DNA of 64,000 nucleotides, from the NCBI RefSeq assembly GCF_015350995.1, contig NZ_JADKRW010000002.1:186001-250000 (forward strand), in the 5' to 3' direction. This DNA comes from Curtobacterium sp. VKM Ac-1393. GTDB lineage: Bacteria > Actinomycetota > Actinomycetes > Actinomycetales > Microbacteriaceae. A program made the position numbers and the translations under genes. The notes beneath the pieces are model-generated. The model saw nothing but the letters and a program-made list of their open reading frames with translations. It was not told the DNA's origin and searched no databases. Below are positions 7,853 to 46,500 of the stretch, one piece after another. How positions within the stretch are numbered: position 1 is the stretch's first letter; each line of letters opens with the position of its first letter.

Positions 7853-7869
7853 CGCGACCCGGATACTGC

Positions 7870-7905
7870 CTGGAGGCGCGGTACCAGCTGGCACCGCGCC
7901 TCCAG
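7870..7905 (+). terminator. Terminator hairpin after acnA
   Basis: 13-bp perfect arms CTGGAGGCGCGGT and ACCGCGCCTCCAG flank a 10-nt loop containing CCAGCTGG, 18 bp after the acnA stop. It is one of six hairpins in the window built on a GGAGGC stem at gene ends. Confidence 0.75.
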
Positions 7906-7926
7906 TCCGTTCTGTCCCCACGCGCA

Positions 7927-7932
7927 TAGAGT
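7927..7932 (+). promoter_or_regulatory. Candidate minus-10 box of dxs
   Basis: TAGAGT fits the TANNNT pattern and lies 29 bp before the dxs GTG, downstream of the acnA terminator. No clear minus-35 element is visible. Confidence 0.35.
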
Positions 7933-7961
7933 GGGCCGACAGCCCCACGAAAGGAGCGCCC

Positions 7962-17834: not shown

Positions 17835-17848
17835 ACGCGACCGAAGGG

Positions 17849-17892
17849 CGGACGGGAGGCGCGGTGTCAGCTGGCACCGCGCCTCCCGTCCG
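17849..17892 (+). terminator. Terminator hairpin after the alpha/beta hydrolase
   Basis: 18-bp perfect stem (left arm CGGACGGGAGGCGCGGTG) with an 8-nt loop TCAGCTGG, 15 bp after the hydrolase stop. The stem and loop closely resemble the acnA terminator at 7870-7905. Confidence 0.8.
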
Positions 17893-17921
17893 TCGGTGGT
17901 GCCGTCTGCGACACTCGACCC

Positions 17922-27788: not shown

Positions 27789-27871
27789 CGTCATTCCCCC
27801 CTGGTGCTGACCGCACCATCCTGGCACGGAACCCCACTGGTATTCCAGAGGACGGCATGCGTGCCGAGGGG

Positions 27872-27923
27872 GAGACGGACGGGAGGCCCGTGGCGGATCC
27901 GCCACGGGCCTCCCGTCCGTCTC
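27872..27923 (-). terminator. Perfect palindromic terminator after sufE
   Basis: Two 26-bp arms (left begins GAGACGGACGGGAGGCCCG) with no loop form a perfect palindrome that overlaps the sufE stop codon and precedes the RHS gene. It should insulate the toxin gene from the sufE operon. It belongs to the GGGAGGC stem family. Confidence 0.8.
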
Positions 27924-30446: not shown

Positions 30447-30455
30447 TCCCCGTTC

Positions 30456-30499
30456 CGGCCGGGAGGCGCGTGACGGCTCCGCCACGCGCCTCCCGGCCG
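30456..30499 (+). terminator. Terminator hairpin after zapE
   Basis: 17-bp perfect arms, CGGCCGGGAGGCGCGTG and its complement, around a 10-nt loop, 10 bp after the zapE stop. It belongs to the GGGAGGC stem family. Confidence 0.8.
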
Positions 30500-30631
30500 T
30501 CCGTGTTCACGTCGAAAACGCGTTGTGCGACGACTGTCGGCCACCGTCCGGACGGACTGCGCTGACGGATGGCCCCTTTCCAGGGGGCTTCGGGGCGCGC
30601 GAAACACGACGTTTACAAACCGCGCCGTCGC

Positions 30632-30669
30632 GTTACATCCGCGAAACACATCGTGTTCCCTCGTGAAAC
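30632..30669 (+). promoter_or_regulatory. GlnR-type nitrogen operator upstream of amt
   Basis: GTTAC-N6-GAAAC at 30632-30647 is followed, in the same 11-bp register, by TGTTC at 30654 and GAAAC at 30665. This fits the four-half-site actinomycete GlnR box gTnAC-n6-GaAAc-n6-GtnAC-n6-GAAAc, with only the third half-site weak. A further GAAAC-N6-TTTAC pair lies at 30601-30616. The location, 70 bp before the amt start, suits nitrogen-responsive activation. Confidence 0.7.
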
Positions 30670-30738
30670 CTCACCTCGCCAGACTCGGTGTCACCCGAGG
30701 CGGTCCAAGAGCCGTTCGTGCAATCGAGAGGTGAACAG

Positions 30739-32813: not shown

Positions 32814-32865
32814 CGGACGTGCGTCGTCCCCGTGGCTCGCCACGTGTTGTGGACGCCACCGCGGA

Positions 32866-32906
32866 CGGGAGGCACGGTGCGCGTCCGACGCGCACCGTGC
32901 CTCCCG
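32866..32906 (+). terminator. Terminator hairpin after the tyrosine phosphatase
   Basis: 20-bp perfect arms beginning CGGGAGGCACGGTGC with a 1-nt centre (so the outer 18 bp can pair around a small loop), about 50 bp after the stop. It belongs to the GGGAGGC stem family. Confidence 0.75.
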
Positions 32907-32932
32907 GTCGTTGCCGGTCTGCGGGCCGCACG

Positions 32933-32989
32933 CGCTTGCGTGGGTCGCTCCCGCTTGCGTGGGTCGCATGCGCCTGCGTGGCCCGGCCG
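32933..32989. repeat. Three-copy 19-bp direct repeat
   Basis: Units start CGCTTGCGTGGGTCGC, CGCTTGCGTGGGTCGC and CGCCTGCGTGGCCCGG. The first two differ only at their last three positions and the third is degenerate. They sit between the phosphatase terminator and the aldo/keto reductase stop. Confidence 0.6.
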
Positions 32990-33003
32990 CTCTATTGGTC
33001 AGC

Positions 33004-37700: not shown

Positions 37701-37888
37701 GCCCACAGGCTGGCCGAGGTGAGTCGGCCCGACAGCCCCGCGGCCACGATCTGTGGACAGGCGAGCTGAACCGCAGCGTGTGGAGGAACGGAAGCGATCC
37801 CTTCGTGTGCACCTTGCGACGATGCACGTGTTGATCACCTCGTGCTCTGTCGACTCATGCACACGCAACAGTTGCGTGCGCATGTTCC

Positions 37889-37922
37889 GACGACCCACGA
37901 GCCGATCGACTCGTGGATCGTC
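37889..37922 (-). terminator. Hairpin at the end of the fliW operon
   Basis: CCACGAG and CTCGTGG pair around an 8-nt loop; the stem extends outward with GACGA/TCGTC after a one-base mismatch. It lies 41-74 bp beyond the fliW stop on the minus strand. A separate perfect dyad, CACGCAAC-A-GTTGCGTG, is at 37862-37878. The rest of the 262-bp gap 37701-37962 shows no gene. Confidence 0.55.
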
Positions 37923-37962
37923 GCAAAACGGGTGCGGCCGCCGCCCGGCCGGCCGCCGCCCG

Positions 37963-44884: not shown

Positions 44885-45358
44885 ATGACCTTCGACTTCC
44901 AGGCCGCCGCCTTCCGCCAGGCCGCACAGCCCCGCACCGTGACCGACCAACGTCGCGCGCAGTACACGAACGAGGCCGTCCTGTCGGCCACGCCGGCGCA
45001 GCTCGTCACGATGCTCTACGACCGGCTGCTGCTCGACCTGCACCGCGCCGAGGCCGCCCAGACGAACGCCGACTGGGACGCGGCCCGCGAGCAGCTCCTG
45101 CACGCGCAGGCCATCGTCGGAGAGCTGTCGTCGACGCTGCGGATCGACGTGTGGGACGGGGGCGAGGGTCTGCTCGCCGTCTACAACTACGCGTCGACCT
45201 CGCTCATCACCGCGAACGTGCACCGCGACGTGCAGGCCACCCGCGACTGCATCCGGATCCTCGAGCCGCTGCGGCAGTCGTGGCACGAGGCCGCGGCGTC
45301 GCTGCCGGCGACGCCGGCCCGCGAGCAGGCGACGGGCGGAGCCCTCGGTGTCGCCTGA
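44885..45358 (+). CDS. fliS: Flagellar export chaperone FliS
   Basis: 157-residue helical protein with YTNEAVLSATPAQLVTMLYD and LLLDLHRAEAAQ, the FliS signature. It binds flagellin and prevents premature polymerisation in the cytosol. It follows fliD by 10 bp and its 3' end overlaps the next gene by 11 bp. Confidence 0.92.
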   Translation: MTFDFQAAAFRQAAQPRTVTDQRRAQYTNEAVLSATPAQLVTMLYDRLLLDLHRAEAAQTNADWDAAREQLLHAQAIVGELSSTLRIDVWDGGEGLLAVYNYASTSLITANVHRDVQATRDCIRILEPLRQSWHEAAASLPATPAREQATGGALGVA

Positions 45359-45617
45359 CGCCTGGGAGGCGGCACTCGCTTCCCTGGAGCAGGACGTGAC
45401 GCTCGACGACGGCACCGGGTGGTCGGAGCCGGCCGGGCTGGGTCCGGTGCCGCGCGAGTTGGTGGGGCGTGCCTCCCGGCTGCTCGCAGCGCAACGCGAC
45501 CGCATCGCGGAACTCGAGTCGGACCGACGGGCGACGCTCGAGCACCTCGGTGCGCTGCGCGCCGTCGACGCGACCCGCGAGCCGCGCGGCTCGGTGTACC
45601 TCGACGCCTCCGCCTGA
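45348..45617 (+). CDS. Small helical protein in the FliT position
   Basis: 89-residue protein from GTG 45348, overlapping fliS. It has one coiled-coil-prone helix (VGRASRLLAAQRDRIAELES) and an acidic N-terminus. Its position after fliS and its size resemble FliT, the FliD chaperone, but sequence support is weak. GTG is the only start that keeps the N-terminal helix and couples it to fliS. Confidence 0.55.
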   Translation: MSPDAWEAALASLEQDVTLDDGTGWSEPAGLGPVPRELVGRASRLLAAQRDRIAELESDRRATLEHLGALRAVDATREPRGSVYLDASA

Positions 45618-45640
45618 CCCGTCCGCCCCGCTCGACCCGC

Positions 45641-45986
45641 TACGACATGCTCGACGTCGTACGACATCGAGCGTGTCGCTCGCCCGCGCGTGCAACACCG
45701 GGCGGGCGCAAGGTGCGACGGGGTGGTCGTCGTACGACATCGATGCTGTCGTTGCCCGGCGAGCGCAACCGTCCTCAGCGTGAACGGATGGCGTTGGCAA
45801 CGTGCGACGAGGTGGTCGTCGCACGACATCGAGGATGTCGTCCGACCCCGGACGCAACTGTCTGCGCGTGCACGGTGCGTCATCGTCGAAGTCGTACGAC
45901 AACGAGCGTGTCGTCGAGCCGCGCATGCAACGTGACGCGTGAGCACGGTACGACGTGATCGATGTCGTACGACAACGGGGACGTCG
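45641..45986. repeat. Structured repeat array, mostly 73-bp period
   Basis: Five units share a 23-bp core, GTCGTACGACATCGA-N3-TGTCG with variants, starting at 45656, 45729, 45818, 45891 and 45964 (spacing 73, 89, 73, 73 bp). A partial copy precedes them at 45641. Each core contains the palindrome GTCGTACGAC (or GTCGCACGAC) and can form a CGACA...TGTCG hairpin. Between cores GCAAC and GTGCGACG-type segments recur. The 538-bp gap 45618-46155 contains this array, the flgB promoter and no convincing gene. Confidence 0.8.
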
Positions 45987-46030
45987 TTCCACATCGGACG
46001 CCGCCGTGCCACCCCCGTTCGGGGCGATGC

Positions 46031-46059
46031 CTAACGCGGCCGGGGACGGGCACCGATAG
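46031..46059 (+). promoter_or_regulatory. FliA promoter of the flgB operon
   Basis: CTAACG (46031-46036), 16 bp, then CCGATAG (46053-46059), about 97 bp before the flgB start. It has the best minus-10 match to the sigma-28 CCGATA core of the three copies. Confidence 0.6.
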
Positions 46060-46155
46060 CGCCACACGAGCACGGATCGCTCACCAGTTCGGCCACGGAT
46101 CGGCCACCACCGCTTCGGCGACGTCCCCTCGACGACGCCTGACGAGGGGACCACC

Positions 46156-46500
46156 GTGTTCGATTCCGTGACGAGCGTCGCGCTGCAGAGCGCACTCGAC
46201 GGTCTGTCGATGCGCCAGAAGGTGATCGCGAACAACATCGCGAACATCAACACGCCGAACTACCACGCCGAGAAGGTCCAGTTCGAGGACGCCCTGGCGA
46301 AGTCGATCACCGACGGCAGCGGCGACACCGCGCCGACGATCGCCCGCAGCCTCGAGCCGACCAACACGAACGGCAACAACGTCAACCTCGACGAGGAGAC
46401 GCTGTCGAACATCGACACCGTGCTCCGGTACCAGTTCGCCACGCAGGCGATGAACTCCGAGCTCACCAGCGTCCGCGCGGCGATGCGGACCAACTCGTGA
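46156..46500 (+). CDS. flgB: Flagellar basal-body rod protein FlgB
   Basis: 114-residue proximal rod protein. It has the conserved MRQKVIANNIANINTPNY motif near the start and a C-terminal helix (DTVLRYQFATQAMNSELTSV). The start is GTG 46156, with GAGGGGACC upstream. It is the first gene of the long rightward basal-body and hook operon; its stop overlaps the flgC start. Confidence 0.93.
   Translation: MFDSVTSVALQSALDGLSMRQKVIANNIANINTPNYHAEKVQFEDALAKSITDGSGDTAPTIARSLEPTNTNGNNVNLDEETLSNIDTVLRYQFATQAMNSELTSVRAAMRTNS

Follow-up and report, generated by a model that had tools for sequence, protein, structure and literature searches.

The intergenic region between fliS and flgB in Curtobacterium sp. 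VKM Ac-1393 contains an array of tandem repeats, which raises the question of whether such an array belongs to the flagellar genes that flank it or to a class of element found well beyond them. In the window, the stretch of 64,000 nucleotides that was analysed, the array lies between the end of an 89-aa ORF and the start of flgB (Table 1), within the gene order fliC-fliD-fliS / flgB-flgC-fliE-fliF. A sequence-only reading had described five 23-bp cores with a 73-bp period, and the sequence positions bear this out: GTCGTACGAC cores are found at 45656, 45729, 45891 and 45964 and a variant, GTCGCACGAC, at 45818, with core-to-core steps of 73, 89, 73 and 73 bp. Tandem Repeats Finder agrees, placing a 73-bp period at 45818-45977 with a score of 176, the top of 39 rows for the window. 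When one mismatch is allowed, the window has 15 GTCGTACGAC sites, compared with 7.48 (sd 2.71) expected, and 1 of 100 shuffles reaches 15; Rfam at its gathering threshold gave no matches across the 64 kb.

A search for half-sites across the whole source genome (G000) showed the cores to be parts of a larger unit, a 36-bp node of the form CGAC-N9-GTCG-NN-CGAC-N9-GTCG in which two 23-bp cores lie head to head in opposite orientation and share 10 bp. With up to two mismatches allowed, this genome has 157 forward and 186 reverse half-sites, and the reversed pattern gives 12 and 15. The array is made up of five such nodes (45643-45986) plus degenerate outer arms, a further 'copy 0' noted earlier is apparently node 1's mirror half, and the single 89-bp step arises because one inter-node segment is longer than the others. 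Isolated nodes carry 11-bp flanking arms (CCGACYCGGAA / TTCCGRGTCGG) that extend them to a 58-bp palindrome, and the 35-37 bp at the centre of paired nodes are often palindromic themselves (GCAACNGTTGC in many copies).

Table 1. Features at the fliS-flgB junction, and a second element in the window (window coordinates).
Feature	Positions	Strand	Tetramers	Centre	RNA fold z	Remarks
Type-B element, two nodes 71 bp apart	37817-37923		37817-37852, 3 mismatches; 37888-37923, 1 mismatch
fliS	44885-45358	+				Pfam PF02561, E 1e-28
89-aa ORF	45348-45617	+				ends 25 bp short of node 1; Pfam gave no match
Left outer arm, degenerate	45632-45642	+				family consensus CCGACYCGGAA; here TCGACCCGCTA
Node 1	45643-45678		16/16 bases intact	TA	-5.00
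Node 2	45716-45751		16/16 bases intact	TA	-1.75
Long inter-node segment	45752-45804					53 bp; usual length 37 bp
Node 3	45805-45840		16/16 bases intact	CA	-1.80
Node 4	45878-45913		1 mismatch	TA	-0.10
Node 5	45951-45986		16/16 bases intact	TA	-1.63
Right outer arm, degenerate	45987-45997	+				family consensus TTCCGRGTCGG; here TTCCACATCGG
Presumed flgB promoter	46031-46058	+				sigma-28-type, CTAA-N18-CCGATA
flgB	46156-46500	+				Pfam PF00460, E 1.1e-08; opens next co-directional cluster

The CTAA-N18-CCGATA sequence, which we presume to be a sigma-28-type promoter, has close counterparts in the flgB upstream sequences of genus loci, and 46013-46150 is likely the promoter region; within it, CCCCGTTCGGGGCGA followed by CTAAC..CCGATA and CACGGATCG boxes recurs, slightly changed, upstream of genus flgB genes. 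We can only guess that the 89-aa ORF after fliS encodes a divergent FliT-like chaperone; the sequence encoding its end, TACCTCGACGC, recurs in 18 of the 19 flgB upstream regions inspected.

Nodes also occur as a second, related family (type B), which keeps the same tetramer framework and has a centre of AT, TT or AA, CAC..GTG inside and a 71-bp step, compared with steps of mostly 72-73 bp in type A, the family of the array. The type-B pair in the window lies 39 bp from the neighbouring minus-strand gene. Tandem steps measure 71-73 bp in 221 of 266 cases, the next commonest being 89 bp (6 times), with a minority of 56-68 and 78-100 bp. The 279 clusters contain one node in 92 cases, two in 146, three in 19, four in 9, five in 10 and six in 3, although both of these counts are enriched in doubles as many loci were retrieved with the pair pattern; five nodes place the array at the large end of the family's range without making it unique. 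Mixed arrays (L039, L113 and L155) have neighbouring nodes that are common to type-A and type-B units or centres, and in array L038 two consecutive units are identical.

In the samples searched, the nodes are essentially confined to the genus. Exact type-A matches are present in 56 of 66 Curtobacterium genomes, at 0 to 89 per genome, and exact GTCGTACGAC pairs in 39 of the 66; type A is not essential, since 10 of the 66 lack an exact match. Exact nodes of both families number 57, 57 and 81 in three Curtobacterium genomes and 0-2 in each of 107 other genomes of the bacterial family, 11 of which have any node. The GTCGTACGAC pair pattern was found in 7 of 10 genus genomes versus 5 of 388 others in the bacterial family, and on inspection three of the five outside matches are mutually similar and coding-looking, another is a simple repeat and the last (G101) is a different palindrome. 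The latter, in another genus of the bacterial family (G101:C1:213594-213733 and 513434-513508), has GTCGTACGAC ends around an unrelated CTTCGACARGCTCAG-like interior and is once tandem with a 65-bp step. A scan of a named collection gave at least 115 loci, all of them from Curtobacterium among the matches listed. Window positions 45600-46020 had no match in plasmid and phage collections, and spread on plasmids or phages was rejected on this ground.

Within these genomes the nodes favour particular gene junctions. Among 81 clusters, 51 lie between convergent genes, 24 between co-directional ones, 2 between divergent ones and 4 at contig edges; none is inside a gene predicted by codon usage, and 17 of the 24 co-directional clusters sit closer to the preceding stop codon than to the start of the next gene. 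A count of gaps of 25-1000 bp in the window plus L031-L180 (80 of the at least 115 loci), with genes predicted by a codon-usage script trained on 18 window ORFs rather than by a standard caller, showed that of 145 gaps with elements 84 were convergent, 58 co-directional and 3 divergent, compared with 51, 222 and 137 of the 410 without. Another strong hairpin accompanies the element in 30 of 84 convergent gaps and 19 of 58 co-directional ones; in gaps without elements the corresponding counts are 26 of 51 and 39 of 222. The elements mark the ends of transcription units without simply substituting for terminators; the idea that they replace terminators was rejected, since convergent gaps show a mild deficit of other hairpins only and co-directional gaps show the opposite. 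No T-run follows the palindrome in family copies whose flanks were inspected.

Other palindromes share these positions. Another long hairpin (score at least 13) is present in 9 of the 32 intergenic gaps of the window, and wherever the sequence beyond it is shown, no T-run follows immediately. Long, near-perfect hairpins of the form GGAGGC...GCCTCC occur in gaps 7853-7961, 17835-17921, 27795-27921, 30447-30738 and 32814-33003 and in gaps of other genus loci, and apparently constitute a third family of 3'-end palindromes.

What is conserved within a node is chiefly its tetramers. The test set consisted of nodes in GTCGNNCGAC pairs 71-73 bp apart, drawn from the window and L002-L060 and retrieved without using the outer tetramers. 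All eight outer bases were intact in 70 of 81 nodes, with one mismatch in 9 and two in 2 (29, 4 and 1 among 34 non-redundant nodes). Modal frequencies are 0.31-0.69 at 14 of the 18 N9 positions and 0.78-0.90 at the remaining four, which form the inner CG pairs. Tetramer bases thus hardly vary, and most bases between them are nearly free.

The support for base pairing is more uneven. Isolated type-A nodes (37 non-redundant, taken as those with no exact node within 130 bp, some of which may have a decayed partner) have 5.59 of 9 Watson-Crick pairs compared with 4.64 (sd 0.19) in column shuffles, a value that 0 of 1000 shuffles reach; by the same definition 16 isolated type-B nodes have 5.38, against 4.55 (sd 0.28, largest 5.50), and 70 tandem type-A nodes have 4.59, against 4.35 (sd 0.14, largest 4.83). 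An isolated copy can fold very stably, one example reaching -55.3 kcal/mol (z -10.19). Within the array, however, node 1 alone folds clearly better than shuffles and nodes 2-5 do not clearly do so, and of two longer pieces, 45632-45762 has z -3.59 and 45867-45998 z -0.32. The proposal that pairing is kept in the array while bases change fails for most of it, and across the genus it holds for isolated type-A nodes but not for tandem ones.

Changes between species add to this picture. Twenty-seven single-node orthologue pairs, one of them (L067:3163/L274) probably false, contain 4 double Watson-Crick changes, 32 single changes kept by G-T and 67 single changes that switch between pair and mismatch. 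Observed pairs kept numbered 37, compared with 38.5 (sd 3.7) in a simulation that placed changes at random, and observed pairs broken 29, compared with 68.4 (sd 4.4), a shortage of breaks that favours pairing, although the random placement did not spare the constrained tetramers; double changes were seen 23 times compared with 8.3 expected, a number inflated by some misaligned outer arms. Between the two nodes of a doublet, pairing is clearly above shuffles at 2 of 9 pairs in the outer arms and 2 of 9 in the inner arms, three of these four lying at pairs 10-11, which distinguish family A from family B. A single 83-bp hairpin between GTCGTACGAC ends was considered and provisionally set aside, its inner arms clearly exceeding shuffles at only 2 of 9 pairs, both of which differ between A and B. 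Sequence recognition has better support than RNA structure.

Comparison of orthologous junctions indicates how these elements turn over. Among retrieved copies, the nearest within-genome paralogue of the 109-bp double element reaches a maximum identity of 0.79 in G000, 0.85 in G079, 0.72 in G005 and 0.76 in G011, so no double element among the copies compared seems to have been copied very recently. For single nodes the median distance to the nearest paralogue is 3-4 of 18 variable positions, compared with 2 between orthologous single A nodes, and G079 and G011 each contain two nodes with a paralogue identical over those positions; with paralogues only slightly more distant than orthologues, recent copying of some nodes is possible. 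Junctions also differ between species. G000 and G005 share a single element (L063:6699, junction J1, 11 of 13 loci aligned) that the nine other aligned genomes lack. Junction J2 (10 of 13 loci aligned) has type A in G000 and G011, type B in G005, G002 and G010, nothing in G001, G004 and G017 and another, longer sequence in G012 and G023. At L067:3163 the gap measures 101 bp and contains a node in G000, and is 12 bp long in G005. At the few empty sites seen, the flanking bases differ together with the element, so that a target-site duplication is not discernible. A composite element carrying a gene between two nodes (L067) was rejected, as G005 has the same gene with one node.

Among 54 orthologous cluster pairs from G000, G005 and G011, a set that includes the probably false L067:3163/L274 pair (G005 lacks that node) and takes in 50 of the 53 nodes for G011, the family differs in 10, at six junctions, and node number differs in 9 of 40 A-A pairs. 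For 27 G000 clusters, a retrieved subset of those in the genome, an exact node was not found at the examined locus in 10 cases in G005 and 13 in G011, which may not be empty sites. Type B occurs at type-A junctions of G000 above chance (P 0.0002-0.003, assuming an estimated 500-1000 available 3' junctions). The flgB junction itself behaves in the same manner, since its 23 genus loci comprise 4 with type-A arrays (G000, G001, G004 and G008, in each case next to the presumed promoter), 1 with a single degenerate A-like node, 10 with type B and 8 with no node at up to two mismatches. The upstream gap of flgB in L009 (G023) has no nodes and contains tandem units of about 20 bp (GTCGAATCGCGCGTAGG...) instead. 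A suggestion that the array is prone to recombination gains support from the differences in node number at this junction and among type-A pairs, and from the identical units of L038.

These observations make it almost certain that the array is one locus of a genus-wide palindrome family of the REP/BIME/REPIN type in Curtobacterium, an assignment based on extragenic palindromes, inverted doublets at a fixed distance, tandem and hybrid arrays and 3'-end location. The expectation of flagellar specificity is refuted by the dispersal of the family over the genome, and we infer that the array is a tandem amplification of a family element, incidental to flagella. On balance it is probable that a REP-like 3'-end family has been tandemly amplified here and is read by a putative sequence-specific factor. 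More tentatively, and with somewhat less than an even chance of being correct, we propose from these sequence comparisons that it is a maintained 3'-boundary element recognised by a putative protein. Each node would carry two adjacent putative recognition sites (CGAC-N9-GTCG) for a protein that may act on DNA or on the transcript 3' end, and the element would form a boundary where transcription units end, through a hairpin, a bound-protein roadblock or both. Such a roadblock would limit read-through and 3' decay, a role proposed for REPs and BIMEs. At the fliS-flgB junction the array would keep the operon of filament genes apart from that of the basal body, its five nodes having presumably arisen through tandem duplication of a 73-bp period that comprises a node and an inter-node segment. 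The 3'-end bias and the near-invariant tetramers argue for a recognised boundary; weak pairing in the array, mostly non-compensatory changes between orthologues, the coexistence of elements with other strong hairpins and the 10 of 66 genomes that lack an exact type-A match argue against it, and the 3' location could simply reflect purging of insertions elsewhere. An array bound by a putative protein, as suggested earlier, is plausible in view of tetramers that hardly change amid mostly variable bases, and a structured RNA leader finds no support, given an array upstream of the presumed flgB promoter and a family located at gene 3' ends.

The main rival to the boundary proposal, which we regard as possible though doubtful, is that these palindromes are mobile, REPIN-like and purely selfish and are tolerated where they lie, at 3' ends, as insertions elsewhere are costly, with tetramers that would be the recognition sites of a putative non-RAYT mobilising enzyme. 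Mobility of this kind is consistent with the restricted presence of the J1 element, the 101-bp versus 12-bp gap at L067:3163 and the wide range of type-A match numbers, and its odds are raised by the node-level paralogue distances, including the identical paralogues in G079 and G011; the lack of near-identical double elements among the copies compared, the lack of matches to 45600-46020 in plasmid and phage collections and the lack of a Y1 transposase match in the 66 genomes argue against it. A related and more speculative proposal, rather unlikely in our estimation, is a RAYT-less REP/REPIN-like system in which families A and B occupy 3' junctions, one replacing the other between sister species, and one putative CGAC-N9-GTCG-binding protein or recombinase recruits, replaces and amplifies nodes in place.

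It is unlikely that the elements are ordinary bidirectional intrinsic terminators whose mutual similarity is a terminator consensus. The strong preference for convergent and 3' positions, the stable folds of isolated copies and the other T-run-less hairpins in window gaps would fit such a function, but the inspected copies lack a T-run, the internal tetramers are conserved, pairs keep a fixed 71-73 bp, 30 of 84 convergent element gaps hold another strong hairpin and the hairpins of nodes 2-5 have decayed. Similarly improbable is a set of sites for a chromosome-organising protein such as gyrase or a nucleoid protein, for which steps of 71-73 bp, about seven helical turns, would put nodes on one face of the DNA. 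Positive supercoils meet at the 3' ends of convergent genes, and the palindromic CGAC-N9-GTCG resembles, by inference, a dimer operator. BIME-2 binds gyrase (cited passages of PMC2817692). Against this reading, copying by descent would also give a fixed spacing, many loci were retrieved by the pair pattern and a minority of steps fall outside this range. A flagellum-specific cooperative regulator array controlling flgB is very improbable: it would account for arrays that adjoin the presumed promoter in four genomes, and it is largely refuted by the genome-wide dispersal of the family and the scarcity of type-A arrays at genus flgB junctions (4 of 23). More than one of these mechanisms, the boundary proposal included, could apply at once.

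Dense in one genus of high-GC actinobacteria in which no RAYT was found, the family lends itself to a comparison of selfish passengers with maintained 3'-end machinery, to which near-invariant tetramers and family replacement at orthologous gene ends add. Match numbers that vary from 0 to 89 among genomes, and the differences between sister species, provide ready-made experiments.

The array had been taken to resemble no described element, yet a described kind exists, and the family shares with REPs and BIMEs its dispersed extragenic copies, its alternating orientation, pairs and tandem arrays and its location at 3' ends, in convergent or unidirectional junctions; its fixed-distance inverted doublets are those of REPINs. 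Its membership of the RAYT-mobilised class is not confirmed, because profiles PF01797 and NF047646 for the RAYT Y1 tyrosine transposase each matched 0 of 66 genus genomes with a positive E. coli control, and a RAYT-driven REP was rejected for the same reason. Among top-ranked open-licence papers no report of such repeats in Curtobacterium was found, although earlier publication is possible; a 2025 mechanical survey lists palindromes in three Actinomycetota, in the cited passages, and its main text does not contain 'Curtobacterium' (PMC12306157).

Like intrinsic terminators, the Curtobacterium elements place a GC-rich hairpin soon after a stop codon; unlike them, they have no T-run in the inspected flanks, fixed-spacing paired nodes and conserved tetramers. 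Tagged REP families are reported mainly from Proteobacteria, the GTAG class being tied to RAYT transposases, in the cited passages of PMC3733652, whose main text has no word beginning 'actinobac'. GTAG- and CGTC-tagged REPs are, as here, short palindromes mostly at convergent or unidirectional junctions near 3' ends, and CGTC-tagged REPs also lack a dedicated transposase (same passages of PMC3733652), but the Curtobacterium consensus and its arms, paired at both ends, have no unpaired GTAG or CGTC tag. BIMEs of E. coli and Stenotrophomonas, as portrayed in the cited passages of PMC2817692, are likewise dispersed extragenic palindromes in alternating orientation, in pairs or tandem arrays, some of them hybrid arrays of two unit families; unlike them, the Curtobacterium family has no RAYT found, a double-palindrome node with four CGAC/GTCG tetramers and a range of essentially one genus in the samples searched. 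Unlike the REPINs of Pseudomonas fluorescens described in the cited passages of PMC3116915, it has a conserved unit that is itself palindromic with variable arms, and no associated RAYT was found; like them, it forms inverted doublets at a fixed distance (71 bp in the GI group), with conserved ends, a less conserved spacer and some tandem clusters.
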